The notes beneath the pieces are model-generated. The model saw only the letters and a list, made by a program, of their open reading frames with translations, was not told the origin of the DNA and did no database searches. Position numbers and translations under genes: made by a program. Of a stretch of 32,652 nt of DNA, positions 15,353 through 30,043 are shown piece after piece. Numbering within the stretch: the first letter of the stretch is position 1; the number at the start of each line of letters is the position of its first letter. The stretch covers positions 1 to 32,652 of the forward strand of contig JAGUVT010000047.1 of assembly GCA_020062745.1 (NCBI GenBank). Reading direction: 5' to 3'. This DNA is from Deltaproteobacteria bacterium. GTDB lineage: Bacteria; Bacillota; Desulfotomaculia; Desulfotomaculales; JAGUVT01.

Positions 15353-15446
15353 AAGGATTATTTTAGAGGGGTGTGATCCTAATGTGAACAGATTTAATTC
15401 CAATGTTTCTAAAACGTGGATTTCCAAAGAAAGGAGAGTAGTAATC

Positions 15447-18400
15447 ATGTTTACCGGACTGAAAAACAGAATAAGAAATTTCCCCAGGCCGCTGTTCATC
15501 GTGGCTGCTATATTCCTGATCATGGGGGTGGTCGCAGTTTTTGCGGCTGATAATAGCACATGGACAAAGGAAGGTGGTGGTAAGGATGGCAACAAATACC
15601 CCACCCCCGACGAATACAAATACGACGGCGTCTCCCGCAAGTACGCTTACATGACCTGGGCCAAATTCGGATACAAAATCCTCCTCGGCGGGGGCGCCGA
15701 AGCGGTGCGCACCATCGATACCATGTACGTGCCCAGCTTCGACCACAAATTCGACAACCCCGCAGACTACTTTGACACCGGCCAGGCCGCCGTACCTGCG
15801 GACGAAGTATTCAAGACGCTCAAAGATTCCTACTTCGACCCCCTGAACTGGCCGTTTCTGTCCGGCGGCAGGTACTACGACCTGAGTGACCGTCCCGGCG
15901 GGTGGAAAGACACTGTGGGCAACAAAGAGTGGAACCGGGCCGCGAATATGTACAAGCTGGAGGTAAATGTCACCAGAACGAAGGGGGACGATTACACGAA
16001 GTACAAGGACAGAACCCCCGACCCTAACGCCACCCCTGGCGACCCGCAGCGCGTCAAAGACGGCGACGGCTCCGCCTCCAAACCCGCCGACGTAGGCTGG
16101 CGCGACGGCAACGGCAACTTCGTCTACAAAAAATCCAGCGGCCCCATCACCTACACCGACATGGACGGCAATACCGCATCCACCCCTGGTGACATCGGCT
16201 GGTGGGGCATGACCGAGTGGTGCGGCAAGATGCTGGTCTCTGTACGGAACAAAACCGGCGGCTACGGAGACGTGGTAATAGCCCAGAACTACAACATAAT
16301 GCTGGTGGGTCTGGAACGCACCTACATGGCCAGGGAACCCGGCGAGAAGGACCGCTTCACCGTAAGCCTGGTGAACGAGATGCCGTTCGATGTAAGAAAC
16401 GTCCACCTGCGCGCTTACATCAAGGCCTCCGGCAAGGCCCCCATCCTGATCTACAATGAAACAGTATCAAAACTGCGCGGCTACGGCAGAGGCTGGGACA
16501 CCGAAGGCCCGCAGGCGATCGTCAGCAAGGAGTTCGAGGCTCCCGTGCCGGAAGGGCTGCCGGGAGGCGAAGCCCCTCAATACGAGATCATCGCCACCGC
16601 TAATATCTATTATAGCAACGGCTGGGTCAATCAAAACCTGGTCTCCGAGTGGCGCAACAATGGGAGGAAAATCTTCGGCGACAGCGGGGCCGCCGAGACC
16701 AATTATGCGGACAACGTCCAGAAGGTGGCTTTAGTGGGCCTTAAGAAAGGTGAAAACCGGCCCGAGCCGACTCCGACGCCGACTCCGACTCCGCAACCGG
16801 AGCCCAAACCGCAGCCCAAACCGCAGCCCGAACCGGAGCCTGAACCCGAACCGCCGTGGACCCCGATAAAAACCGGCTGGTGGGAGGAAGGAGTGTACTA
16901 CCCCGTAATCACAAAGCCCGTCTATAAAGAAGTGATCGTAGAAGAACCGGTGACGAAGCTTAAGTGGGTGCCATATAAAGAAGCCACCCCGCCTAAAATA
17001 AAAGTGAGGCTCATTTCGTGGCTCTCGCCCCGGCAGGCCTGGGCGGGGGACGACAACCGGCCGGAATGGACGTACCTGTGGGACGGCAACTGCTATTACG
17101 GGAGATGGGTTGATGCGGGCATGATCATTTTCATCGAATACGACCCGGATACCGGCAGACCTACCGGCCGCGCCGGCGTGCCTGAAGCGACCGTGATTAA
17201 GAAAACCATAAAAGTGCTCGACCGGTACGAAACCGCGCCGGACTACAGCAGCCCGAAGCCGTTGAGGCCCCTGGTGAACTCACAGGCGTTCTGGGGAGGG
17301 AGCAAAGACACCTTTTCCCTGCGTCGTTTCGAACTGTACGGCCAGTACGACCCAAACAACCCCAACCGGCAGATCGGAGCGATGAGCTCTCCGCCGGTGG
17401 TTCTCTACTCGCCATACGGGAACAATTACCCGGACTACTGGCGGTGGATAATCTTCGGCTTTTACAACCAGAATCCCGTATCTCTGGACGGCAAAGCCAG
17501 GGTGACGGGTTCCGCCTTCTCGGAAGAAGGCGCGACGCGTTTCGCCCCGTACCAGACGAAGATGATGAGGCTGGTCATGCCGAAAATAGAAAATAAAGAC
17601 TCCGTGGAGAGCAGAAGCTTCATGACCGCCACCGAAGTTACCGGCGTTGAAAACGCCGTGCTCGGCAAAGCCGCATGGGAACTCGCCGAGCGCCAGGGCG
17701 TGCGGATAGAAACCGAATACAACACTTCCCCGAATGAACGCGTGATCAGATACTACGACGGGCAGCCGAAAGAAGAGTGGATACCTTACTACTCCAAAGA
17801 GTTGCGCACCCTGACGCGCGGCGTCAAGTGGGCGCCCCGATGGGTGTCCGAAAGCCCGGATTCTTCCTTCGGCCGCCTGGAATACGATCCCAAACCGGCA
17901 TGGGTGTGGGGTGTGACGGGAGACTGGCCGAACCATGAAGGCAGCGTGAAAATGCCGGGCATGCCCTCCGTGCAGCACGGCCGGTACGGCGAATGGACGG
18001 AGGAAAAACCGGCCGGCCCGGTGGACGCGCCGCATTACAAAACAAACATCATGTGGAAGTATGTTTACGATCCTTCCATACAGAAAAACCAGGGCTGGGA
18101 CCCCATGCTCGCCGGCTGGGTTCCCATCGAGAGAAAAAACCCGTACTGGAACAACTCCAGAGACTACCGGGGATGGGTGTCACCGGACAGAAACGGCGAC
18201 GAGGTTTACGTCAAAACATACATCCGGGACCGGAACGGAAACGTAACGACGTCCGAACGTTTTTACAGAAAGGTTTCGGAGACCTGGGACATCTCAAAAG
18301 TTTATCCTTACTGGTGGAACTCGGGAAGATACACATCGACCTTAAAAGAATCGACCGGGGACCCGATGGCGGACAATGAAATCCGGCTGGAACTCCTTCC

Positions 18401-19241
18401 CAGGGACCAGATGAGATACGGGCCGGGCGACGGGTGGTACTACGAACAGTTCAAGCCGATACAGCGCATAAACGTGCCCGTGGTGTACAGGCCGATCGTG
18501 GGAAGTCACTTCCAGGTGGCTTCATACAAAGAACCAGGCCGCCGCTGGGGCTGGATTAAGCATCCGTGGGGGTACGGAGGATACTGGGGCTGGGTTGATG
18601 AACCGGCCCGGGCGCATCTGAAAGTGACCGCGTACATGCACAACCCCAACGATTATGCGGTCACCGTGAAAGACATCGAGGGAATATACGCATATGAAGA
18701 GAATGAGAAAATTCACATCGCCAATATCGGCCCTCAACCGTTAAACATTGCGCCGCGCAGCTTCGGCGCCTTTACGGGCGATCTTGTACTCGACGGCTGG
18801 TCTGCGGAAAGATTCCACGACCGCTGGGTGAGAATGGGAAAACCTGAATACATGCTGCCGTATGGGACATATTGGGGTTTCCGCACCACCCTCAAAACGG
18901 ACAGCATTGTGGGATACGACTACGGCGCGTTTAGAGCCTACCTTGCGCCGGGCTTCTGGACGACGGGTTATATCCAGAACGTGGCGTGGTGGGCCTCTCA
19001 GAACAGCCAGTTTACGATCATCGGCCCGGGCGTGAGCGGCCACGTCCTGAAAGCGGAGAACGCCATGACGGACGAGGAATTGCAGCGATTCGTAAACACG
19101 CCCTACGTATCGACGAGAGCGCGGGGAAACATCAGGCGGATCACTTCAAACGATCACACGGTGTGGCTGCCCGTCAAGCGGGAGCTGTACTACAACAGCT
19201 ATGGTGACTGGTGGGTGGAAAGGACGGTGCTGGAGAACTGA
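15447..19241 (+). CDS. Giant exported Trp/Tyr/Pro-rich surface protein, 1264 aa
   Basis: ATG 15447 has AAAGGAGAG eight to ten bases upstream; an upstream in-frame start at 15384 lacks a site. An N-terminal signal or anchor is clear (FPRPLFIVAAIFLIMGVVAVFA, ending near residue 32). The first 430 residues are an aromatic, Asp/Gly-rich region; then comes a Pro-rich hinge of PT, PQPKP and PEPE repeats (about 437-473), and an 790-residue C-terminal part rich in Trp and Tyr with many WW, WG and YY pairs. No catalytic motif, LPxTG or S-layer domain is seen. I do not recognise the family. The hinge suggests a wall-spanning spacer, and placement in a conjugative element suggests an adhesin or mating-surface role, by inference only. 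Codon use is GC-rich as in the transfer genes. It ends with a terminator at 19351. Confidence 0.7.
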   Translation: MFTGLKNRIRNFPRPLFIVAAIFLIMGVVAVFAADNSTWTKEGGGKDGNKYPTPDEYKYDGVSRKYAYMTWAKFGYKILLGGGAEAVRTIDTMYVPSFDHKFDNPADYFDTGQAAVPADEVFKTLKDSYFDPLNWPFLSGGRYYDLSDRPGGWKDTVGNKEWNRAANMYKLEVNVTRTKGDDYTKYKDRTPDPNATPGDPQRVKDGDGSASKPADVGWRDGNGNFVYKKSSGPITYTDMDGNTASTPGDIGWWGMTEWCGKMLVSVRNKTGGYGDVVIAQNYNIMLVGLERTYMAREPGEKDRFTVSLVNEMPFDVRNVHLRAYIKASGKAPILIYNETVSKLRGYGRGWDTEGPQAIVSKEFEAPVPEGLPGGEAPQYEIIATANIYYSNGWVNQNLVSEWRNNGRKIFGDSGAAETNYADNVQKVALVGLKKGENRPEPTPTPTPTPQPEPKPQPKPQPEPEPEPEPPWTPIKTGWWEEGVYYPVITKPVYKEVIVEEPVTKLKWVPYKEATPPKIKVRLISWLSPRQAWAGDDNRPEWTYLWDGNCYYGRWVDAGMIIFIEYDPDTGRPTGRAGVPEATVIKKTIKVLDRYETAPDYSSPKPLRPLVNSQAFWGGSKDTFSLRRFELYGQYDPNNPNRQIGAMSSPPVVLYSPYGNNYPDYWRWIIFGFYNQNPVSLDGKARVTGSAFSEEGATRFAPYQTKMMRLVMPKIENKDSVESRSFMTATEVTGVENAVLGKAAWELAERQGVRIETEYNTSPNERVIRYYDGQPKEEWIPYYSKELRTLTRGVKWAPRWVSESPDSSFGRLEYDPKPAWVWGVTGDWPNHEGSVKMPGMPSVQHGRYGEWTEEKPAGPVDAPHYKTNIMWKYVYDPSIQKNQGWDPMLAGWVPIERKNPYWNNSRDYRGWVSPDRNGDEVYVKTYIRDRNGNVTTSERFYRKVSETWDISKVYPYWWNSGRYTSTLKESTGDPMADNEIRLELLPRDQMRYGPGDGWYYEQFKPIQRINVPVVYRPIVGSHFQVASYKEPGRRWGWIKHPWGYGGYWGWVDEPARAHLKVTAYMHNPNDYAVTVKDIEGIYAYEENEKIHIANIGPQPLNIAPRSFGAFTGDLVLDGWSAERFHDRWVRMGKPEYMLPYGTYWGFRTTLKTDSIVGYDYGAFRAYLAPGFWTTGYIQNVAWWASQNSQFTIIGPGVSGHVLKAENAMTDEELQRFVNTPYVSTRARGNIRRITSNDHTVWLPVKRELYYNSYGDWWVERTVLEN
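16759..16857 (+). repeat. Coding repeats of the Pro-rich hinge
   Basis: Short repeats of CCGACT, then AAACCGCAGCCC and related GAACCGGAGCCT units encode the PTPTPTP, QPKPQPKP and EPEPEP runs of the surface protein. Such runs change length by slippage and could vary between strains. Confidence 0.75.
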
Positions 19242-19566: not shown

Positions 19567-20079
19567 TTAATCAGGATTATTAAACCCCAGTCTTTCAAAG
19601 GCACGTTCTACAATGTCGTCTGTAATGTATTTTGGGTTATTCTGCTGTATTTGTAGAATAATATCCCTGGCATGCATAACAGAAAGCCCGCCCGATTCCA
19701 CCAATATACAAATTAGCTCAATTCCCCAAATCATTGGTACACCCTCTAATTCACACTGTCTTCTTAACGGTTTATCATTTGTTACACATGCCCAACCATA
19801 TTTTTTAGCAAGAATTAAACATAAATGGTCTTGGAAAGATAAGGACCCCCTATTTTCCACTGCTGACATAACCTGTTCCAGTTCTGGTTCCACAAGTCTA
19901 ATCCCAAGTTCTATACAATCACCTTCGCTTATTTCATTGATTTCATTCAAAACAGGCGTAGCTAGGTAGATGTGACCTACATAAATGCACAGTAGTTTGA
20001 TAATAGTTTTGTCACATTTAAAGAAGTCGATAAGAATGTTCGCATCCAGTATTAGAAAATGCTGTTTTTTCGTTCTCAT
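19567..20079 (-). CDS. PIN-domain protein, 170 aa (toxin-like ribonuclease)
   Basis: A PIN-fold nuclease. Acidic residues expected for metal binding are in place: Asp12 in LDANILIDFF, Glu46 in LNEINEI, Asp84 in SFQDHLCLILAKK and Asp102 in TNDKPLRR. The C-terminal helix (DIVERAFERLGF) is typical of larger PIN toxins. Its ATG at 20079 follows the stop of the XRE-ImmA gene by four bases (TAGGTGAATG), so the two are translated as a unit. In such pairs the XRE-ImmA partner acts as antitoxin or regulator and the PIN protein as RNase toxin. All catalytic positions look intact. Confidence 0.8.
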   Translation of the reverse strand: MRTKKQHFLILDANILIDFFKCDKTIIKLLCIYVGHIYLATPVLNEINEISEGDCIELGIRLVEPELEQVMSAVENRGSLSFQDHLCLILAKKYGWACVTNDKPLRRQCELEGVPMIWGIELICILVESGGLSVMHARDIILQIQQNNPKYITDDIVERAFERLGFNNPD

Positions 20080-20083
20080 TCAC

Positions 20084-21235
20084 CTACTCCCAAGAAGAAA
20101 TTCTTTCTCGCATGGCTTCAAGGTCTAATCTTAGTATTTCGGCACCACGACTCAAGGTAATTTTATCTTTTTCAATGCCAATGCGAACTAGTTTAGATAA
20201 ACGATCTTCAATGAAATCAGATGAGGATAGAGAGTCCGGTTCCTGAGAACGTAAAACCTCCGACATGGATTGTTGAAATTTATTCGGAGATAGAGCTTCC
20301 GGCTCTTCGCTAGTACCCAAAGTTTTACCAGTTCTTAATTTATAAGCGCTCTGAAACTTTCTCCATACGGGATTTCCTATTTTCTCGGATAGCCGATAAA
20401 GGACGGTTTTATAACTAACCTGAAATATTCGTTTCACCTTAAGCACGCGATCTACAAAGGATAAGCCGTAAGTATCCTCCCATTCCGATTCAAAAGCTTT
20501 TTCAGGCATTAGGAAATAGGAAGCAAAGACATTCGCTTCAACTTCTTGATCTTTATCTTCGGTACTTTCATTTACATCATAGGCGCCCAAATGAAGCAAT
20601 AAATGCCCTAGTTCATGAGCAGCACTAAAAATCCATCGTTCAACAGAAATCCGCTCCCAAACGTTAATAATGATAGCAGGACCTCCATCTCCATCGGAAA
20701 CTGACAAGCCAAAGAATCCGTCCGATGCAAGACTAATGGTGTGTAGTTTTATTCCATTTGACTCTAACAAACCAGCAATATCGCGAATTGGTTCTTTTTC
20801 GCCTAGATTTAGCTCTTTTCTTGCAAGCTTAGCTACCTGCTTTGCTCTGTCAACCCCTGCAGGAATGGCAGATGAACGATTGGCAAGATCCTTAAATCGA
20901 TATTCTACATGATTGTCTAATAAATTTTCCAGGTAATTATAGTCATCAACCCATCGGGTTACTTCAGATAAAATATAATCTCGGCTATTCATCCTCTTTA
21001 ATGCTCGAAATCTGACTTTCTCTAAAGTGCGAGTTTGTCTAAATAAATCTTGTAATTTTACTCCAAGCGCAGTAGCGATACTTTGTAAGGTTGATACTTT
21101 TGGGGTTGAGTTTCCATTTTCAATATTCCGATATGCAGGCCTTGAAATCCCGGCAAGAGCAGCCACTTGAAATTGGCTCAAGCCTCTTGCTTCACGAATT
21201 CGGCGAAGGTTTAACCCGATTATTTTTTGTTCCAT
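20084..21235 (-). CDS. XRE-ImmA/IrrE fusion regulator (antitoxin of the PIN pair)
   Basis: A 383-aa protein with an N-terminal Cro/C1 HTH (about 6-62: IREARGLSQFQVAALAGISRPAYRNIENG) and a C-terminal ImmA/IrrE peptidase domain with the complete zinc motif HELGH at 207-211 followed by EVEANVFASYFLMP, the usual second helix (Glu ligand region). I prefer ATG 21235, with GGTGGTG just upstream, over the GTG at 21244. Known members bind their own operator and cleave or hold a regulator; with PIN genes they form addiction or stress modules. It is divergent from the ubiquitin-like operon, and its upstream DNA holds the imperfect palindrome TACGGAA/TTCGTA at 21272-21292, a possible binding site for the HTH. 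Confidence 0.82.
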   Translation of the reverse strand: MEQKIIGLNLRRIREARGLSQFQVAALAGISRPAYRNIENGNSTPKVSTLQSIATALGVKLQDLFRQTRTLEKVRFRALKRMNSRDYILSEVTRWVDDYNYLENLLDNHVEYRFKDLANRSSAIPAGVDRAKQVAKLARKELNLGEKEPIRDIAGLLESNGIKLHTISLASDGFFGLSVSDGDGGPAIIINVWERISVERWIFSAAHELGHLLLHLGAYDVNESTEDKDQEVEANVFASYFLMPEKAFESEWEDTYGLSFVDRVLKVKRIFQVSYKTVLYRLSEKIGNPVWRKFQSAYKLRTGKTLGTSEEPEALSPNKFQQSMSEVLRSQEPDSLSSSDFIEDRLSKLVRIGIEKDKITLSRGAEILRLDLEAMRERISSWE

Positions 21236-21307
21236 GTTCACCACCCTTTTTTATATTTATATATATTATATACGGAAATACATAATTCGTAAACATGATA
21301 AGTTAAC

Positions 21308-21336
21308 TTGCCATAAAAATATTTTTGGTATATAAT
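21308..21336 (+). promoter_or_regulatory. Strong sigma-A promoter of the ubiquitin-like operon
   Basis: TTGCCA (21308-21313) and a perfect TATAAT (21331-21336) are spaced by 17 bases, about 115 bases before the first gene. It is the best promoter match that I found in the window. Confidence 0.75.
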
Positions 21337-21449
21337 TAAAATCAACCAGTTGGTAACGTGAAAAAATATAGATCAGGAAGGAGGAATTAGGTTTAGCGAA
21401 ACAATCCATAAGAATCAGGGTATTATCAGATGAAAGGTGTGTGAATCCT

Positions 21450-21614
21450 ATGGCTTATATTATGAATAACCTTCATGGGAACGGCAAATCATCTTCGGGG
21501 CGTCCTGTAGATCCAGGGCGACGGCCTGTAGAACCACCTGGTCCTCCGCCGGAGCGGCCACCACGCCGCGACCGTGATGATCGTCCACCGCAGCCAGATC
21601 GTCGTCACGGGTGA
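21450..21614 (+). CDS. Small Pro/Arg-rich protein ending in Gly (candidate modifier or bait)
   Basis: A 54-aa protein with no fold visible: about a dozen residues of polar lead, then dense Pro, Arg and Asp (GRRPVEPPGPPPERPP and DRDDRPPQPDRRHG), ending in a C-terminal glycine. ATG 21450 has AAAGGTG about ten bases upstream. The frame also runs upstream, without a canonical start, to codon TTA at 21393, which is correctly spaced from a stronger AAGGAGG site; that extension would add KQSIRIRVLSDERC, which resembles a first ubiquitin-type strand. It is the first gene before the E2-E1 fusion, six bases ahead of it, so I infer that its C-terminal Gly is what E1 activates. It is too short and proline-rich for a ubiquitin fold; an adaptor is the alternative. 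Confidence 0.6.
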   Translation: MAYIMNNLHGNGKSSSGRPVDPGRRPVEPPGPPPERPPRRDRDDRPPQPDRRHG

Positions 21615-21620
21615 GCACTG

Positions 21621-23291
21621 ATGATTAAGCCATATCAGCTGTGGTATGAAAGGCACCCTGAACGTTTTGAAGAGGAAGTTGCTGACATGGAAAAACGGGG
21701 CTTCGTCCTTGATGACGAAGTCCTGCAACTCCATCAGCATGTGGTGTTCACCGGTGCTTCGTCAGTAGACTATAGCAGACCGTTAGTGATTAAGTACCCT
21801 GGAGCTTTTCCATCTATGCCACCTCGTATTTTTAGCGAAACGCCGGGACGGCTTTTGCGTCGTCACCAACGTCCTGGAACATGGGAGATATGTCTATTTG
21901 GACCTGGGCAAAGGCGATGGTCTGCGGAGTTGTCGGGCTCGGTGGCCATTGACGAGGCCGAGGAAATTATCCGGTTGTTTTCGGACAAAGCGGAAGTAGT
22001 TGAGGATGAGGTGCCTGAGCCTGCTTCAGCTTTATACCATTACGCTGTAGATTCAGCCATTTTCGTGCCGCCCGAAGTGGCAACCCCTGATATCGTAGCC
22101 GCCGACGTTCCACTTATTGGGACTTTCCGTCTAAGATTTCGCAGGAGCACAAGTAACCACAGTAAAGGTTCCATCAAAGGCCGTGGAATTATATTGAGTG
22201 CTAAACTTGGCGAGTGGCATGGACAGGTCGGGGCTGCTTTTAGTAATTGGTGCTCAGGCGGACAAGAAGAAAAAGGGCCACTTGTATGGTTGCCGAAACC
22301 GTTGCCTTTCTTAGAAGGACCCAAGGACTTCAGTACGTGGCTTGATCAGCATAATTTAAAGACCAAACAGTGGATAGCATTTGTCTTTCCAGAGCAATCT
22401 GGAACCGTATTGGGGCAACGTTTTGGGTGGTTGGTGGTTCAGGCCCCTACTAGTGGCACTTTTCATTACATACGTGCATTTCCTTATCGTAGCGAAGAAC
22501 GCGTGGCTAGGATTCCTGGTCTCGGCGGTTTGGCTGGCAAAAAGGTCGTCTTCGTTGGCTGTGGAAGCATGGGTTCCAAAATTGCTGTCGCATTGGCTTC
22601 AAGTGGGATCAACCGATTTGGTTTGGTTGATTTTGATATGTTTAAACCCGAAAACTCGGTAAGGCATGAGGTAGGGGTTTGCTGTTATGGCGATCCTAAG
22701 GTTTTAGCTTTAGCAAAGCGGTTATATGAAATGAATCCTATGATTAACGTTGATAAGCTATGTATGAGAATCGGAGACCTTGATTTTTCTGCGGATGAGA
22801 ATATACTGTTTGACCTCCTTGCCGCAGCGGATTTGGTGATCGAAACCACAGGTTCTCATGGTGTCAGCCGATGGGTTAACGATATGTGTCATGACTTTGG
22901 TGTACCGTCGGTTTATGCAACTGTAACGAATGGTGCCTGGGGTGGGGAGATTGTGCGAGTAATACCTGGTAGAACTGCTTGCTGGCAATGCTGGTATGCT
23001 GAATGGGAGACTGATCGCCCCCCAGGGGCTCCTGCCCCTAAGGTCGGGATTTTCGCGCCTGGTTGTGAACAGCCTACTTTTACCGGGGCAACATATGAAA
23101 TTGGGGTTGTAGCTAACTTGGCTGCGTGGGTAGCAGTCGAAACGCTGCTTCGTGATGAATCAGGACGGAAAGATTTCCGTGGCGACTACGTCCGGTGGGT
23201 TGCGCGCACCAGTGAAGGTGTACCAGACCTCGCTCCGGCGGTTTTAGAGATTCACAAACGGCCGGGATGCCCGGTGTGTAATCCCTTATGA
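21621..23291 (+). CDS. E2-E1 fusion of a bacterial ubiquitin-like conjugation system (Cap2-like)
   Basis: A 556-aa protein. Residues about 1-125 form an E2-like domain: IKYPGAFPSMPPRIF (57-71), then WEICLFGPGQRRW with candidate thioester Cys91. After a linker domain (about 140-290), residues 300-556 are an adenylating E1/ThiF-like domain: VGCGSMGSKIA (312-322), DFD (337-339), arginine finger in ENSVRHE (Arg348), Lys360, zinc pairs CWQC (454, 457) and CPVC (550, 553), and candidate catalytic Cys482 in APGCEQPTFTGA. The layout is that of Cap2 of type II CBASS. All catalytic residues look present. ATG start six bases after the small protein and a four-base overlap with the JAB gene make one operon. 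Role inferred: activation and transfer of a protein C-terminus to a target. Confidence 0.88.
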   Translation: MIKPYQLWYERHPERFEEEVADMEKRGFVLDDEVLQLHQHVVFTGASSVDYSRPLVIKYPGAFPSMPPRIFSETPGRLLRRHQRPGTWEICLFGPGQRRWSAELSGSVAIDEAEEIIRLFSDKAEVVEDEVPEPASALYHYAVDSAIFVPPEVATPDIVAADVPLIGTFRLRFRRSTSNHSKGSIKGRGIILSAKLGEWHGQVGAAFSNWCSGGQEEKGPLVWLPKPLPFLEGPKDFSTWLDQHNLKTKQWIAFVFPEQSGTVLGQRFGWLVVQAPTSGTFHYIRAFPYRSEERVARIPGLGGLAGKKVVFVGCGSMGSKIAVALASSGINRFGLVDFDMFKPENSVRHEVGVCCYGDPKVLALAKRLYEMNPMINVDKLCMRIGDLDFSADENILFDLLAAADLVIETTGSHGVSRWVNDMCHDFGVPSVYATVTNGAWGGEIVRVIPGRTACWQCWYAEWETDRPPGAPAPKVGIFAPGCEQPTFTGATYEIGVVANLAAWVAVETLLRDESGRKDFRGDYVRWVARTSEGVPDLAPAVLEIHKRPGCPVCNPL

Positions 23292-23791
23292 TGTACCGAC
23301 ACGTTTTCATCCTTAGCGGCGCATTGGACACGATACGTCAAGAAGTGCGGCGTACACCATTTTTGAAAGAAACAGGTGGTCCGATGGTTGGTTACGTTTC
23401 CACTGACGAGGCTGTCGTTGTTACGCATGCAGCCGGTCCAGGGCCACTAGGGAAGCGAGGTTACTTCAGTGTCTTAATCGATGGCCGCTACGCCACGCAG
23501 TTTTGCAACCGGGCTGGGCAGGAGTTCAATGGCTGCTTTTACTACGTAGGAGACTGGCACTGTCATAGGGGGTGGTCATTAAAGCCTAGTCATGACGACT
23601 TGAAAGCCATGCGTGTCATGGCTGCTTATGTAGGTTGCCCAATGAAGCGCCCGATTTCGCTAATCTATCGTTATTATCCAGAGGAGTATAGGGCATACAC
23701 TTTAAACTCCGCCGGACGGCTTGAACCAACTCCAGTTAGTGAATTGGCCGAAGTTCCATATATTCTACACAGCAGAAAGCTGCTGAAATGA
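23288..23791 (+). CDS. JAB/JAMM-family isopeptidase (Cap3-like)
   Basis: A 167-aa JAB-domain metalloprotease. The complete JAMM signature is visible: Glu28 in KETGGPMVGY, then His91-x-His93 and Ser101-x-x-Asp104 in GDWHCHRGWSLKPSHDD. In ubiquitin-like operons this enzyme processes the modifier tail or removes it from targets. The ATG at 23288 overlaps the E1 stop (ATGA); an adjacent ATG at 23291 is equally possible. No membrane segment. As the small protein already ends in Gly, processing is not needed for exposure, so deconjugation is the likelier job (inference). Confidence 0.85.
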   Translation: MMYRHVFILSGALDTIRQEVRRTPFLKETGGPMVGYVSTDEAVVVTHAAGPGPLGKRGYFSVLIDGRYATQFCNRAGQEFNGCFYYVGDWHCHRGWSLKPSHDDLKAMRVMAAYVGCPMKRPISLIYRYYPEEYRAYTLNSAGRLEPTPVSELAEVPYILHSRKLLK

Positions 23792-23868: not shown

Positions 23869-24171
23869 GTAGCAATACTTTCTTTTTGTGTTTCATTCGG
23901 CCTTGTACACGTTTCCTCTGTTATCGAAATGGAGATCGATGCTATTTGGAAGGAATACGGTTCTTTCGGAGAAATCAGCGAAGAAGAGTTTTGGCGCTAC
24001 TTCGAGGGATGCGAGCGTGGGAGCGTATTGACGTTCTCAAGAATTATAGAGTTTTCGGTGCCGTTTGATTCCCGGGAGGTCCTACCGAACTTTGTTCCCC
24101 CTCAAAACTATCGTTGCTTAAACGAAAAGGAAGCCAGCTTACTGATGAAACAGTCAAATTTAACGGAGTAA
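23869..24171 (+). pseudogene. 5'-truncated PUA/ASCH-like domain gene
   Basis: The frame from 23863 (after a TAG at 23860-23862) to TAA at 24169-24171 encodes about 100 residues. From KVAILSF through VIEMEIDAIWKEYG, ISEEEFWRYFEGCERG and LPNFVPPQNYRCL it resembles the C-terminal two thirds of small PUA-like (ASCH/EVE-type) proteins, which share GISxEEF-x-x-YF and F-x-PPQS/N-Y-x-x-L blocks. The N-terminal strand and the K/R-rich entry motif of that fold are missing, and only an ATG in mid-domain (23929, 80 codons) is available. I read it as a remnant. The family assignment is by eye and modest; PUA-like proteins bind modified bases. Confidence 0.5.
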
Positions 24172-24200: not shown

Positions 24201-24234
24201 AAGCCTCCGGTCCTCGCCGACCGGGGGCTTTTTT
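24201..24234 (+). terminator. Strong terminator, landing site of the group II intron
   Basis: AAGCCTCCGGTC (24201-24212) pairs with GACCGGGGGCTT (24219-24230) through 12 base pairs with one G-T, loop CTCGCC, followed by TTTTTT. The intron starts six bases after the T-run. Confidence 0.85.
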
Positions 24235-24650
24235 GTGGTGGTGCGCCCGGCATGGGCGGTAGCTTGGCGGTGAAAGTCCGCTATGGACTTGGCAGTGGGA
24301 ACCATTAGCCAATGGCAAGGGTGTCCATCGCGAGGTGGAATCTGAAGGAAGCCGGAGGCAAAGTCCCGACCTGATGAACAAAAACCGCATACAAGGCTGA
24401 TGTGGGGCGGACGAGTTTGCCATACAAAGCAAAGTCCAACACTGCCCGAATCCCACACAGTAGATGCGGCGGGTACATGGGATGAAGGCTATCGTTCTTA
24501 CCCGGGGAGGTCTGGCAGATACGCCATGAAGATGAACTTCGAAGGGGCAACCCGTACAGTAATGTGCGACTGAACTGCCAGAAGTCAGCAGAGGCCATAA
24601 TAGGTTGGTTGTCATGAACACCAACTGAAGGACCGAACGTCAGGAGGTTT

Positions 24651-26114
24651 TTGGAAGTTTGCGGTACTCGACGGATACGCACAGAAAGCAGAAAACTTCA
24701 AGTGAAGGCTGGCCTGCAAAGAATAGGGTGGAACCCAAAGGTATGCAGGGAGTGCCGAGCGTATCTGCGGCGTCCAAGAACGGAAGAAACGGCGGCAACG
24801 GGTATTCCGATTACCTGCTTTTTGAAGATTGTGGACAGGAACAACCTGAACCAAGCCTACAAGCGGGTAAAGGCCAACAGAGGCAGCCATGGCGTGGACG
24901 GAATGAAGGTAGATGAACTTCTGCCTTACCTGAAACAGCATGGCAGTGCTATCCGGCAGGCCATACTGGAAGGGAGTTACGTCCCAAACCCGGTCAGGCG
25001 AAAGGGGATTCCCAAGCCTGATGGGGGAGTTAGTCTGCTCGGTATCCCGACAGTGCTTGACAGAATGATTCAGAAGGCTATTACACAGGTGCTAACACCC
25101 ATCTTCGACCCGAAATTCTCTGAACACAGCTATGGATTCAGGCCGGGACGAAGTGCGAAAGAAGCCGTAACCCAGGCAAAAGAGTACATTCAAGAAGGTT
25201 ACAGGTGGGTGGTGGACATCGACCTTGCCCGGTATTTCGATACCGTAAATCATGACAATCTCATGAGCCTGGTGGCAAGAAAAGTAACGGACAGAAGGGT
25301 GCTTAAACTAATCCGGGCCTATCTGGAATCCGGAGTCATGGTAAATGGCGTGGTGGTGGAAGTGGATGGAGGCTGTCCTCAGGGCGGACACTAAAGCCCA
25401 CTACTAAGCAACATCATGCTGGATGAACTGGATAAGGAACTGGAAAAGCGGGGACACAAATTCTGCCGTTACGCCGATGACAGTAACATCTATTTAAGAA
25501 GTCAACGCGCCGGAGAAAGAGTTATGCAAAGCATAACGGAGTATATTGAGGGCGCACTGAAGATGAGAGTCAACAGGGAGAAAAGCGCAGCGGACAGGCC
25601 TTGGAGGCGAAAGTTTCTGGGCTTTTCCTTCTACTTCAAAAAGAGTGGAGTAGGAATACGAGTCCACGCAAAACCAGTTAAGAAATTCAAGGACAAGGTG
25701 AGGCAGATTCTATCCAGAAGTAACGGCCAAAGTACGGAACAAAGGGTAGAAGCTCTAAACCGCTGTATCATTGGCTGGGTTAACTACTTCGGGCTGGCAG
25801 ACATGAAAGGCCTAGCCCGTGACCTGGACGAGTGGATTATGCGAAGAACTCGCATGTGTATCTGGAAACAATGGCCGAAAATTAAAACGAGGCACAGTAA
25901 CCTGGTAAAACTGGGAATAGACAATGGCAAAGCATGGGAATTCGCCAACACAAGAAAAGGCTACTGGAGAGTATCCAGAAGCCCTATTCTAAACCGCACC
26001 TTAACCAATGAATATCTTGCAAAGCTGGGTTTTGTAAGCCTAACACAAAGATACTCGAAGTGTGCTCATTCTGACGAACCGCCGTATGCCAGACCGGCTT
26101 GTACGGTGGTGTAG
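24651..26114 (+). pseudogene. Group II intron reverse transcriptase/maturase, interrupted by TAA
   Basis: TTG start at 24651 with AGGAGG four bases upstream, giving 487 codons in one frame with a single stop, TAA at 25392-25394. Reverse transcriptase blocks: VKANRGSHGVDGM, IPKPDGGVSLLGIPTVLDRMIQ, FSEHSYGFRPGRSA, VVDIDLARYFDTVNHD, and, after the stop, RYADDSNIYLRS with the YADD active site; then the maturase X domain (KFLGFSF, INGWVNYF-like GWVNYFGLADM). The stop lies in the conserved QGGPLSPLLSN block: the DNA reads CAC TAA where CCA CTA is expected. A lost C and a gained A seven bases or fewer apart would explain it with the frame kept. The protein is cut before the catalytic YADD, so the intron probably cannot move by itself. 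Confidence 0.85.
26078..26110 (+). ncRNA. Intron domain V catalytic hairpin
   Basis: ACCGCCGTATGCC pairs with GGCTTGTACGGTGGT around an AGACC-type loop, giving the 33-base domain V helix with the CGC catalytic triad at 26080-26082. The end of the maturase frame overlaps it, as usual for compact introns. Domain VI follows at about 26119-26150. Confidence 0.65.
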
Positions 26115-26240
26115 GAGGGTTGGCGGCTTAAAGCCGCCCCCTATCCTAATCAATGTTCGGGGAAAAGCGGGACCGAGGAGGTGGTGACGGAACCGGAATC
26201 CCGCCGAAACGTTTGTAGTGAATAGGAGGTGTTTGAAACT

Positions 26241-26729
26241 GTGGCGATGCGAGTGGTCTTGTTGTTTTCTTTGTGTCTTGCGCTGGTGGTTTTCACATTG
26301 CCGGCGGCCGTCCTGGCTGCCCCGGAACAACCCGTTCCGCCGGCCGGCGTTCCGGGTGGGGATGCTGCGCCCGGCAAAGCCGTAGAGACGCCCGCAGGCG
26401 GCGCTGAAAACGGCGCCGGCAATGGTGTGAAAAACCGGGACTTCGGCATGGTCAGGCCCGTGCCGCCGGAAGTCGCCGCCGGCAAAATCACCGGGATGTT
26501 GAACAGGCTGTACGCGTCCCTGGCGTCGGTGGTGATACCTCTCTCCATGGTGGTATTGCTGATCAGCGCGCTGTTCCTGATCCCGGGCTCGTTTCTCGGC
26601 GCCGAGATGGTGCGCCGCATGGGGTGGGGCGGCATAATTGCGGGTGCGGCCGGCCTTCTGGTTTTCTGGGGCATTCCGTTGATAATCGGGATCACGAAAT
26701 CGATAGCCGACGCCCTCACGTCCGGCTGA
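26241..26729 (+). CDS. Exported membrane protein, pilin-like (first gene of the transfer operon)
   Basis: A 162-aa protein with a signal peptide (MRVVLLFSLCLALVVFTLPAAVLA), a Pro/Gly/Ala-rich spacer to about residue 70, and two to three C-terminal hydrophobic helices (LASVVIPLSMVVLLISALFLI, GGIIAGAAGLLVFWGIPLIIG). This resembles the VirB2/TrbC layout of two helices after a cleaved leader, but the long spacer is unusual. I take GTG 26241 because AGGAGGTG ends ten bases before it; GTG 26229 overlaps that site. First of at least six genes of the type IV secretion operon. Its own promoter is not obvious; the intron lies directly upstream. Confidence 0.65.
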   Translation: MAMRVVLLFSLCLALVVFTLPAAVLAAPEQPVPPAGVPGGDAAPGKAVETPAGGAENGAGNGVKNRDFGMVRPVPPEVAAGKITGMLNRLYASLASVVIPLSMVVLLISALFLIPGSFLGAEMVRRMGWGGIIAGAAGLLVFWGIPLIIGITKSIADALTSG

Positions 26730-26756
26730 AAAAATATAAAGGAGGTAGTTGTAACC

Positions 26757-27113
26757 ATGAGATTACACAGGCTGTTGTACGGAGCCGCGGCATACCTGGC
26801 GTCCTCGGCGTTGCTTGCCGGCGCCGCCTGTGCGGAAGGAGAGAACTACGGTCCCGTAAGTCCCGGAAACGCCGCCGAACTGGGGACGAAGATCGGGCAG
26901 CTGGTGCAGAACGTCGGGATGCCCATCGGCGGCGCCATCCTTTTCCTGTCCGTGGTCGTGGTCGGGATAAAGATCATGATGAGCCACGTCAACCCGCACG
27001 GCAGGGCCGAGGCCATGAGCAGCCTTTTTTACGTCGGCGTCGGCGGCGTCATCCTGGGCGCGGCCATGTTCCTGGCCGGTTTTTTCATCGGCATGGGCGG
27101 TCAGTTGAAGTAA
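26757..27113 (+). CDS. VirB2/TrbC-like pilin
   Basis: A 118-aa protein: signal peptide (LLYGAAAYLASSALLAGAACA), a short polar segment, then two hydrophobic helices (GGAILFLSVVVVGIKIMM and VGGVILGAAMFLAGFFIG) separated by SHVNPHGRAEAMSSLF. Size, order and location before PrgI fit a conjugative pilin-like subunit. AAAGGAGG upstream of the ATG. The loop motif NPHGRAEAM is echoed in the VirB6-like protein (NPAERSEAM at about residue 225), so these loops may share a contact or ancestry. Confidence 0.7.
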   Translation: MRLHRLLYGAAAYLASSALLAGAACAEGENYGPVSPGNAAELGTKIGQLVQNVGMPIGGAILFLSVVVVGIKIMMSHVNPHGRAEAMSSLFYVGVGGVILGAAMFLAGFFIGMGGQLK

Positions 27114-27134
27114 AAGAGAGGGAGGGACGGCGTC

Positions 27135-27449
27135 ATGCGCATGTTTCCGGTACCGATGGAGATCACCGAAGAAGAAAAGATCTTCGGCGGAGTCCTGTCG
27201 GTTCGCCAGGTGGTCTACCTTCTGGCCGGGGCAATCCCGGCCGTGTCCGTTTTTCTGATGCTTCACTTTGCTCCTCTCTTCCTGCGGGTGCTTGCGGCGG
27301 TGATACCCGCCGCCGCGGGACCCGTGCTGGCATTCGGGGAAGTCCGGGGCATGAAAATGGACCGGTATATTGTCAACCTGGCTCTTTTTTTAAAGAGGCG
27401 CAGGAAGTTTCTCTTGTATGGGGGCACCTGTGTGGCAGAAAAGGGGTGA
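27135..27449 (+). CDS. PrgI-family (VirB3-like) protein
   Basis: A 104-aa protein with the PrgI pattern: an N-terminal VPMEITEEEKIFGGVLSVRQVVYL, two adjoining membrane helices (LLAGAIPAVSVFLMLHFAPLFL and VLAAVIPAAAGPVLAF) and a basic cytoplasmic end (MDRYIVNLALFLKRRRKFLLY). PrgI/VirB3 proteins recruit the VirB4 ATPase at the membrane in Gram-positive conjugation systems. GGGAGGG precedes the ATG; the next gene starts four bases after the stop. Confidence 0.88.
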   Translation: MRMFPVPMEITEEEKIFGGVLSVRQVVYLLAGAIPAVSVFLMLHFAPLFLRVLAAVIPAAAGPVLAFGEVRGMKMDRYIVNLALFLKRRRKFLLYGGTCVAEKG

Positions 27450-27453
27450 ATGA

Positions 27454-28215
27454 ATGCTTATCGGCATAACCTTTGTCGTCCTGGCCGTTGTTGCCGCCGT
27501 CTCGATTCCTTTTTTGAGCCGCTTCATGGAACAGCGGGCAACGGGAGGCCGGAAGAGGCGGTCCGGGCCGGACGACAGACTTAAGCGAAAGAGGAAAAAG
27601 AAAGATGATTTCAAAGAGATGTGGGACATAGAAGACATACGCCACGGCGTGATCACCCTTTCCGGGGGCCGGTACCGGGCGATCCTGCGCCTGGGCTCCG
27701 TCGACTACCACCTGATGTCCGAAGCGGAGCAGCACGGCATCGAGTCCGTTCTCATGCAGCTGGCGATGTCCTTGAATCAGCCGGTGCAGTTTCTCACCAC
27801 CACCGAGATGGTCGACGCCGTGCGCTGCATTGCGGACATCGTCTCCGGGCGGGAGGGCATGCCGGAGAAGCTTCAGGCCTACGGCTCGCAGATGGTGGAG
27901 TTCCTGTCGATGGTCATGCAGGACCGTTCCGTTCAGACCAGGCAGAGCTACGCGGTCGTCTGCTGCGATACGGCGGACGGCTTTGAGAAGGCGCGGGCGG
28001 AGCTTTACCGCCAGGCGTCCATAGTTTCCGGCGGGCTGTCCCGGGCGCAGATACCGGTTTCCATTCTCGACACCGGGGAGATAGTTGATCTCCTGCACCG
28101 GCTGCTGAACCGGTGGCGGACCGCCAGGCCGTCGGAGGCGGCCGCGGCGGGCGGGATTGAACCGTACAAGTACGGGAAGGAGGGGATACCCCTTGCTTTT
28201 CATGAATCGTCGTAA
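27454..28215 (+). CDS. VirB4 N-terminal-domain-like membrane protein
   Basis: A 253-aa protein with one N-terminal membrane helix (IGITFVVLAVVAAVSIPFL), a strongly basic stretch (about 28-55, RKRRS to KRKRKKKDD) and a soluble domain. That domain (GVITLSGGRYRAILRLGSVDYHLMSEAE, then LNQPVQFLTTTEMVD) looks like the N-terminal domain of VirB4/TraC-type ATPases, here on a separate polypeptide ahead of the ATPase gene. Inference: membrane anchor or cofactor of VirB4. AAGGGGTGA upstream of the ATG. The 3' end overlaps the VirB4 start by 23 bases. Confidence 0.65.
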   Translation: MLIGITFVVLAVVAAVSIPFLSRFMEQRATGGRKRRSGPDDRLKRKRKKKDDFKEMWDIEDIRHGVITLSGGRYRAILRLGSVDYHLMSEAEQHGIESVLMQLAMSLNQPVQFLTTTEMVDAVRCIADIVSGREGMPEKLQAYGSQMVEFLSMVMQDRSVQTRQSYAVVCCDTADGFEKARAELYRQASIVSGGLSRAQIPVSILDTGEIVDLLHRLLNRWRTARPSEAAAAGGIEPYKYGKEGIPLAFHESS

Positions 28216-30043
28216 AGAAAACAGCGGGCCGGCTTTTGAGCGCAACGTGCCTGATTTGTACGACCTGTTCCTGCCTGACGGCCTGGTCGAAGAATACGAC
28301 CGGCTCATGCTTGGCGCCTCCCGGTACTGCCGCGTCTACGCCGTGGCAGTGTACCCCCGCGAAGTTCATCCCGGCTGGCTTTCCGACAGCATACTCGCCA
28401 TCGGGGACATAGACCTTTCGGTGCATGTGCTGCCGGTTCCCGACCGGGCCGTGATCACCGCCCTGACGAAGAAGGTCACTTCAGCCTACGCCCAGAGGCT
28501 GGTCGATCAGAAGGCCGGGAACATTTTGCGCCTGCCGGAACTGGACGAAATCATCCGGGACCTGGAGGGCATCCGGGAAGTCATCCAGACCAACCGGGAC
28601 CGCATGTTCTACGTCCTGATCATGATTGCCCTTCACGCGCGCAGCGCGGAAGACCTGGACCGCCGGTCCGACCTGCTGGAGGACACCCTGGCGCGCATGG
28701 CGACCCAGGGCCGGGTGTGGATCATGCGCCAGGCGGAGGGTTTGAAGACTTCCCTGCCGTTGGGGCGGCAGCCCCGGGGAAAGTACCCTTTTCGCAATCT
28801 GACATCGGGTGCGGTGGCCGCCAACGTTCCGGTGGCCAACCCCGACCTTTCGCATCCCTCCGGGGTGTTCCTGGGACACAACTACTTTACCGGCTCGCCG
28901 ATTTTTTATGATTCCTTCATCGGACCGCCCCACCTGCTGAACCAGCACGCCGCCTGTTTCGGTATGGCCGGCTCGGGCAAAAGCGCCACCTTGAAACTGA
29001 TGCTGCTTCGTTCGGCGCTGCTGGGCGTGCGCACGGTGGTCATCGACCCGGAGCGGGAGTACATGCGGTTGACGGAACACGTCGGCGGCGCGCACATACG
29101 GCTGGTGCCCGGCGTTTCCTCCGGCATCAACCCGCTGGACGTGGAGCCGGAAGAAGACGAAGCCGGCAACAGGACGATAAACCTGTACGACAAGGTGACG
29201 GAGGTGAGGGCGATAATCCGCGCCGCGGTGCAGGACCTCGCCGGCCGGACGCTCGACCCGCAGGAATCCGCGCTGCTGGAGGAATCGTTGCGGGAAGAGT
29301 ACGCCGCCCGGAATATCGTTTGCGACCCGGAGAGCATATATGAAACCGGGAAAACGCATGCCGACGGGAGCATTTCGGTCGGCCTTACGAAAAAGGAAAT
29401 GCCCACCCTGTCCGACCTGGTGCGGCGGCTTTCTACGAAACCGGCGGCGGAGAACCTGGCGGTGATCTTGAAACCCTTCCTGCGCGGCTCCAGCATGGGC
29501 ATGTTCGACTGCCAGACCGCGGTGAACATATCGGACGCCCCGGTGGTGTGCTTCGACGTGAACGAAATCAAGGACGAGTTCACCCGCTTCTACGCCATGT
29601 TCGTGCTGCTGGGCTGGACGTGGCAGAAATTCGCCCAGAAGAACAGGGACGCCAGGAAGCGCGTGATCGTGGACGAGGCGTGGATGTTCATGAAGCACGG
29701 GGACACGGCGGTATTCCTGGAGACTCTGGCCCGGCGCGGCAGAAAACACAACACCTCGCTGGTGGTGGCCAGCCAGCACATTGAGGAGTTCCTGGGGAAA
29801 GAAGAAGGACGGGCGGTGATTTCCAACTGCGCCACCCTGATCCTCCTGCGCCAGCATCCCACCCTGGTGAACCGGGTTGTGGAGGAGTTCCACCTCTCGA
29901 AGGGATGCGCCCAGATGCTGGAGACGTTCGCTCCCGGCGAATGCCTGGTTTCTTTAAACGGCAGCACCGTTGCGGTGCGCGTCACCCCTGCGCCCTTTGA
30001 GTGGCCGCTGGTGAGCACCACGGCCGGGGAGGTACTGACATGA
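28193..30043 (+). CDS. virB4: VirB4-like conjugation ATPase
   Basis: A 616-aa ATPase that powers the type IV secretion channel. Walker A is GMAGSGKS (257-264), Walker B is VIVDEAW (491-497), preceded by FDVNEIKDEF and followed by LARRGRKHNTSLVVASQHIEEFL, a typical VirB4 sensor segment. The N-terminal domain (LYDLFLP to about 200) is short, in keeping with a partner protein encoded just upstream. I place the start at TTG 28193, nine bases after AAGGAGG; ATG 28202 is farther than usual, and an earlier GTG at 28157 lies before that site. It overlaps the next gene by ATGA. All motifs intact. Confidence 0.9.
   Translation: MLFMNRRKENSGPAFERNVPDLYDLFLPDGLVEEYDRLMLGASRYCRVYAVAVYPREVHPGWLSDSILAIGDIDLSVHVLPVPDRAVITALTKKVTSAYAQRLVDQKAGNILRLPELDEIIRDLEGIREVIQTNRDRMFYVLIMIALHARSAEDLDRRSDLLEDTLARMATQGRVWIMRQAEGLKTSLPLGRQPRGKYPFRNLTSGAVAANVPVANPDLSHPSGVFLGHNYFTGSPIFYDSFIGPPHLLNQHAACFGMAGSGKSATLKLMLLRSALLGVRTVVIDPEREYMRLTEHVGGAHIRLVPGVSSGINPLDVEPEEDEAGNRTINLYDKVTEVRAIIRAAVQDLAGRTLDPQESALLEESLREEYAARNIVCDPESIYETGKTHADGSISVGLTKKEMPTLSDLVRRLSTKPAAENLAVILKPFLRGSSMGMFDCQTAVNISDAPVVCFDVNEIKDEFTRFYAMFVLLGWTWQKFAQKNRDARKRVIVDEAWMFMKHGDTAVFLETLARRGRKHNTSLVVASQHIEEFLGKEEGRAVISNCATLILLRQHPTLVNRVVEEFHLSKGCAQMLETFAPGECLVSLNGSTVAVRVTPAPFEWPLVSTTAGEVLT

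Follow-up and report, generated by a model that had tools for sequence, protein, structure and literature searches.

The ubiquitin fold is commonly treated as synonymous with ubiquitin-type conjugation, and in CBASS, as reportedly established in 2023, the protein that is conjugated can be a folded enzyme. Bacterial Bil and Bub operons combine E1, E2 and JAMM components, as does the operon described here, and Pup, a further bacterial tag, carries Glu/Gln at its C-terminal end. In type II CBASS, the C-terminal Gly of the CD-NTase becomes linked to Cap2 as a thioester, a Gly or Ala being required at this position, and Cap3 acts as the isopeptidase (PMC10097602). The Bil operon encodes E1, E2 and JAMM proteins (PMC11354881), and some Bil/Bub operons are regulated by CapH and CapP (PMC13373217). 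Pup is a small disordered protein that is conjugated to lysines by enzymes unrelated to those of ubiquitin (PMC3511204). An additional arrangement, row 6b of Iyer et al. 2006, associates E2+E1 with JAB and a pol-beta nucleotidyltransferase and lists RhNGR234a and an Arthrobacter (PMC1779556).

The window, meaning the whole stretch of 32,652 nucleotides that was analysed, contains three plus-strand genes lying side by side with intergenic gaps of +6 and -4 bases. The 54-aa protein with a PDRRHG end that the earlier note had placed ahead of an E2-E1 fusion and a JAMM peptidase is thus borne out:

21450 to 21614, plus strand: small disordered Pro/Arg-rich protein of 54 aa (MAYIMNNLHGNGKSSSGRPVDPGRRPVEPPGPPPERPPRRDRDDRPPQPDRRHG), the candidate modifier, assigned from composition and codon-position GC.
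21594 to 21611, plus strand: codons of the PDRRHG tail, whose terminal Gly is the proposed conjugation site, from comparison with the CD-NTase of locus L004 (PERRHG).
21621 to 23291, plus strand: Cap2-like E2-E1 fusion of 556 aa, with an N-terminal E2 domain, a linker and a C-terminal ThiF/E1 adenylation domain.
21891 to 21893, plus strand: Cys91 codon of the E2 domain (WEICLFG), invariant in 22 homologues.
22557 to 22574, plus strand: GCGSMG nucleotide-binding motif of the E1 domain (aa 313-318), with G313, G315 and G318 invariant in the 22 homologues.
23064 to 23066, plus strand: Cys482 codon of the E1 domain (APGCEQPTFTG), invariant in 22 homologues.
23288 to 23791, plus strand: Cap3-like JAMM/JAB metalloprotease of 167 aa, with catalytic residues E28, H91, H93, S101 and D104.

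Type II CBASS (PMC10097602; 7to3) shares with this operon an E2-E1 fusion of the same fold and a Cap3-like JAMM, and shares with the system proposed here a conjugated protein that lacks a ubiquitin fold and would be charged via a single C-terminal Gly/Ala. Unlike type II CBASS, the window combines a Cap2-type E2-E1 bearing both cysteines with no CD-NTase and no cyclic-nucleotide effector near the operon, and the Gly-ended protein of the family is disordered and only 30-70 aa long. The absence of a nearby CD-NTase or effector had been pointed out before and extends further, since no SMODS CD-NTase was matched anywhere in the genome (99.65% complete). Bil and Bub use ubiquitin-fold modifiers, whereas no ubiquitin-fold gene lies near the operon in the window, which encodes only the disordered small protein, for which no Pfam family was matched. 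The 6A-MBL systems (E2-E1-JAB with a metallo-beta-lactamase) also contain E2, E1 and JAB domains, but their JAB is fused to E1 and partnered with a metallo-beta-lactamase, whereas the window JAMM is a separate gene without such a partner; the NCBIfam 6A-MBL score is 78 against a cut-off of 320. In contrast to pupylation, the operon encodes E1, E2 and JAMM domains rather than a PafA-type ligase, and its small protein ends in Gly. Our verdict is that the operon represents a variant of Cap2/Cap3-type conjugation that belongs to none of CBASS, Bil, Bub and 6A-MBL. As a separate observation, a metallo-beta-lactamase-fold partner of an E2-E1-JAB protein on a plasmid (L013, 1970-3043) ends in Gly (DDKPMG), and could for this reason be conjugated too.

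Both enzymes are intact, as the earlier note had read from their motifs. The E2-E1 protein matches the PADLOC CBASS E1-E2 model (2.7e-45) and Pfam ThiF (1.2e-27); no E2 family was recognised by the Pfam search of the window protein, and its relatives score as Prok-E2_B (4e-39 in L005, 1e-6 in L048, 1e-5 in L037). A structural model built on 22 sequences (mean pLDDT 73, pTM 0.65) predicts a Cap2-like fold, its best PDB match being solved Cap2 (7to3) over the whole length (Foldseek 4.1e-20, 584 columns); given the poor superposition overall (rmsd 29), this match supports the domain content and not the domain arrangement. The JAMM protein is recognised as a CBASS JAB by PADLOC (7e-16) and its five catalytic residues are invariant in 14 homologues, yet it scores 29 bits against NCBIfam Cap3, under the cut-off of 200. 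Phage-borne E2-E1 proteins were considered and set aside: no relatives were found in IMG/VR (queries P0001, A4 and A2) and phage records returned weak ThiF-type matches only, a result that holds for these collections.

The small protein consists of 24% Pro, with Arg and Asp abundant, and is disordered by composition (charge-hydropathy index -0.40, 13% order-promoting residues). Its ORF is strongly periodic in GC by codon position (0.80/0.61/0.39), and the third-position value resembles those of the two enzymes (0.44 for E2-E1, 0.50 for the other) as opposed to 0.82 in the conjugation ATPase gene; because of this periodicity and of a third position like that of E2-E1, the small ORF looks coding. 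A GTG at 21441 may be an alternative start. No close homologue of the small ORF or the operon was found among 113 genomes of the class or 399 sampled from the phylum.

The survey of homologous loci that the earlier note proposed gave a clear result at a broader scale. A small Pro/Gly/His-rich ORF lies directly upstream of a related E2-E1 and JAMM in 39 other loci from seven phyla; this recurrence is the new result and shows that the small gene occurs well beyond the window, and it gives the gene a stronger family context than is visible from the window alone. Four E2-E1 proteins, those of Arthrobacter FB24, Hymenobacter NBH84, Sinorhizobium and Indioceanicola, served as queries against 84,980 species genomes, that of the window being left out, and yielded 40 loci. 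The count of 39 takes in plasmid loci besides the scan loci, includes near-copies (L006/L019, L012/L042, L029/L035) and omits the weakest matches (e.g. L052-L058), which represent fragments or ThiF-type proteins of other kinds. L032 and L046 have a broken E2-E1 reading frame, and the small frame of L024 continues beyond VG. The family ORFs encode 30-70 aa, are disordered, end in ...PP(K/R)PP..RPVG (or YG) and are mostly unannotated; most of those on plasmids are missing from the plasmid gene tables, themselves incomplete, and the ORF of L006 is annotated as a hypothetical protein. Examples include an Arthrobacter FB24 plasmid (Pro-rich ORF ending PRPVG) and a Hymenobacter NBH84 plasmid (RPVGQQ), each with the ORF preceding E2-E1 and JAMM, as well as upstream ORFs from Sinorhizobium (DRPVG) and Indioceanicola (RQVG). 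A fourth gene common to the loci was searched for and none was found, so the modifier must be encoded by one of these three genes or supplied by the host. In several loci the small genes are His-rich, and two plasmid copies (L005, L006) lie among copper/cadmium resistance genes, making a link to metals possible.

Conservation in these small genes is concentrated at the C-terminus. Among 25 representatives, the window included, the last residue is Gly in 23, Gly followed by QQ in one (L006) and Ala in one (L025), against a background of 9% Gly-ended frames among 1872 ORFs; all 25 are disordered by composition. The tail profile reads P-P-x-x-P-x-x-R-x-V-G, with positions -1, -2, -4, -10 and -11 near-constant (G, V, R, P, P), and the number of repeats in the body varies freely. 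The coding frame of the family is under selection: in Geodermatophilaceae, pN is 0-0.023 against a pS of 0.16-0.23, substitutions are nearly all silent, the C-terminal half is invariant and length changes by whole HPE repeats; the signal is weaker in Sinorhizobium (pooled ratio 0.62). In one Hymenobacter locus (L021, 1602-2090), the RPVG tail terminates a 162-aa DUF1508 (YegP-type) protein upstream of E2-E1 and JAMM; YegP homologues also occur behind capK-capS regulators (PMC13373217).

Two organisms of row 6b carry family members, on pNGR234a and on Arthrobacter FB24 plasmid 1, an assignment made by organism that may concern other loci. In these members (L062 and L005) the upstream gene is the Pro-rich small ORF and not the nucleotidyltransferase of row 6b, and no such small gene is mentioned in this context by Iyer et al. 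2006 (PMC1779556). Nor is it mentioned in the literature searched, the coverage of which is incomplete, and its novelty is provisional.

Within this family the window operon occupies a divergent position. By sequence, the E2-E1 proteins closest to that of the window are those of G112 and G388 (34% identity). The two nearest E2-E1 relatives (L003 and L004) carry a CD-NTase in the upstream gene position (SMODS 3.8e-12 in L004), preceded by a further protein that is a putative effector, and in the tree the window enzyme is sister to two CBASS-type enzymes (100/96), outside the 32-row Pro-class clade (94/93). The small protein is Gly-ended, Pro-rich and upstream, as in the family, with a tail (RRHG) that departs from the RPVG/xVG consensus, HG replacing VG; scored with the tail profile of the family, it does only modestly better than its own shuffles, 0.6% of which reach its value, or 2.5% when the Gly is kept. 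The resemblance is closer to the two CD-NTases, which end in QPERRHG and VDRTHG compared with QPDRRHG in the window: PDRRHG and the PERRHG of L004 agree at 5/6 positions, equalled by 24/200000 shuffles of the window protein. The window body, however, is Pro-rich like the small genes of the other loci and unlike the C-terminal regions of the two CD-NTases. Across the enzyme lineages, tails are mostly xVG in the large clade, K(K/R)YG in two other Bacillota and R(R/T)HG in the group of the window. This similarity of DRRHG to ERRHG/DRTHG suggests that the tail follows the E2-E1 lineage while the attached body (CD-NTase, DUF1508 or disordered stretch) changes, and we infer from these comparisons that the short C-terminal tail is what the enzymes read. 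Since the window enzyme lies beside CBASS-type enzymes and outside the Pro-class clade, the operon is a divergent member of the pairing, and the small gene in it may have arisen independently, as a remnant or a replacement. The earlier note had let its idea depend on whether a conserved small frame, as against a CD-NTase or ubiquitin-fold gene, is the usual partner. In the wider family of 39 other loci the small frame prevails, in line with the lack of SMODS in the genome; for the window itself the answer is mixed, as the two closest relatives carry a CD-NTase, albeit one ending in ERRHG or DRTHG.

The operon is best explained as a ubiquitin-type conjugation module complete in itself, in which the small disordered protein is probably the conjugated modifier, charged via its terminal Gly and taken off by the JAMM, because the same pairing recurs in some 39 other loci. 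The E1 domain would adenylate the C-terminal Gly and take the small protein onto Cys482, from where the fused E2 domain would take it onto Cys91 and hand it to a lysine (or other nucleophile) of a target. The JAMM would cleave it off again and, in precursors with additional residues, expose the Gly; the QQ extension of L006 suggests such processing, and the Ala end of L025 would fit the Gly/Ala rule of CBASS. By position and tail, and by analogy with Cap2, the small protein would take the place of the CD-NTase. Recognition would be confined to the short tail, the body being exchangeable: a CD-NTase in the CBASS-type relatives, DUF1508 in one Hymenobacter and a disordered Pro-rich stretch in most loci. 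In this body there is no structural feature that E1s are known to recognise.

The earlier note had left open whether the small protein is a modifier or an adaptor; gene position, Gly end and tail match favour the modifier. Pro-rich disordered proteins commonly serve as docking segments, a function that would suit this body if the protein were an adaptor, chaperone or targeting subunit of E2-E1 with another host protein being conjugated, and the window tail could also bind E1 uncharged. Such an adaptor would need neither a conserved C-terminal Gly/Ala nor a tail like that of CD-NTases in the same gene position, and a JAMM retaining all five catalytic residues also argues against this unlikely alternative. 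Less probable still is a degenerate type II CBASS that has lost its CD-NTase and effector, leaving a short ORF with the tail. The matching tails and the CBASS-type nearest relatives of E2-E1, with an upstream CD-NTase and putative effector, speak for it, but the body is Pro-rich as in 39 other loci and unlike CD-NTase C-terminal regions, the small ORF is tightly spaced and coding-like in composition, and E2-E1 and JAMM are both intact. A precursor of a modified peptide akin to microcin C7, on whose C-terminus the E1 domain would act like MccB, is highly improbable: MccB, whose substrate is a short peptide, is the top PDB sequence match of E2-E1 (6.6e-10) and the next protein after Cap2 among the fold matches, but it is not known to have a fused E2 domain, whereas here the E2 domain, with its invariant Cys91, and the JAMM have both been retained, the full-length fold match is Cap2, and no exporter or immunity gene is conserved near the loci.

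The module lies in the following genomic setting, in which only three sizeable genes lie between the HTH-M78 gene and the terminator or group II intron:

20084 to 21244, minus strand: HTH and M78 (ImmA/IrrE-type) protein, divergent from the operon (HTH_3 1.3e-15, Peptidase_M78 6.2e-17).
21308 to 21336, plus strand: sigma-70-type promoter TTGCCA-17-TATAAT ahead of the operon, 11/12 by consensus match only.
24209 to 24229, plus strand: terminator-like stem followed by a T run, the first plausible transcript end, by consensus match only.

The strong promoter claimed earlier stands as an 11/12 consensus match; promoter-like sites in the region number what chance would give, so only the quality and position of this one count. 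An 80-aa ORF at 23929-24171 had no Pfam match. Conjugation genes at 26229-30043 (VirB2-type pilin, PrgI and a VirB4/TraG-type ATPase) have a much higher third-position GC than the operon, and this difference marks the three genes, on base composition, as apparent cargo of an integrative/conjugative element. Two further features of the region are a group II intron at 24324-26114, recognised by Rfam D1-D4 matches, in which the reverse transcriptase/maturase is divided between two frames (24651-25394 and 25416-26114) and so is probably broken or affected by a sequence error, and a 1285-aa protein at 15384-19241 that contains a segment of Pro/Glu repeats, has no confident Pfam assignment and may act at the surface or in conjugation.

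The window HTH-M78 protein matches PADLOC capP (5e-19), capH (1e-10) and RmrA (1e-36), and is possibly a regulator related to CapH/CapP or the antitoxin of a separate module; as a PIN-like gene (19567-20079) lies downstream of it, the two may instead form a toxin-antitoxin pair. Comparable genes occur at other loci: capP (1.2e-76) and capH (1e-27) near the Alteromonas locus L041; in Kiloniellaceae (L036), an HTH-M78 protein encoded divergently from the small gene and 29% identical to that of the window; and, in L029, a gene that resembles capP more weakly. That the module serves in immunity or stress is a guess by analogy, prompted by these CapH/CapP-type regulators beside a few loci and by the relatives.

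For the family as a whole, we lean slightly towards the view that disordered Pro-rich proteins are widespread, mostly unannotated modifiers for true E1/E2/JAMM enzymes in many phyla, that the tail suffices and a ubiquitin fold is unneeded, and that the same-tailed CBASS CD-NTases are one exchangeable body among several. If this is true, short length and low complexity have caused a conserved gene to be missed, and a second disordered tag, unrelated to Pup, would stand beside Pup. The very small three-gene systems would lend themselves to probing what E1 and E2 recognise, and a disordered modifier of 30-70 aa used by the same enzymes would reduce the requirement for conjugation to a short C-terminal tail.
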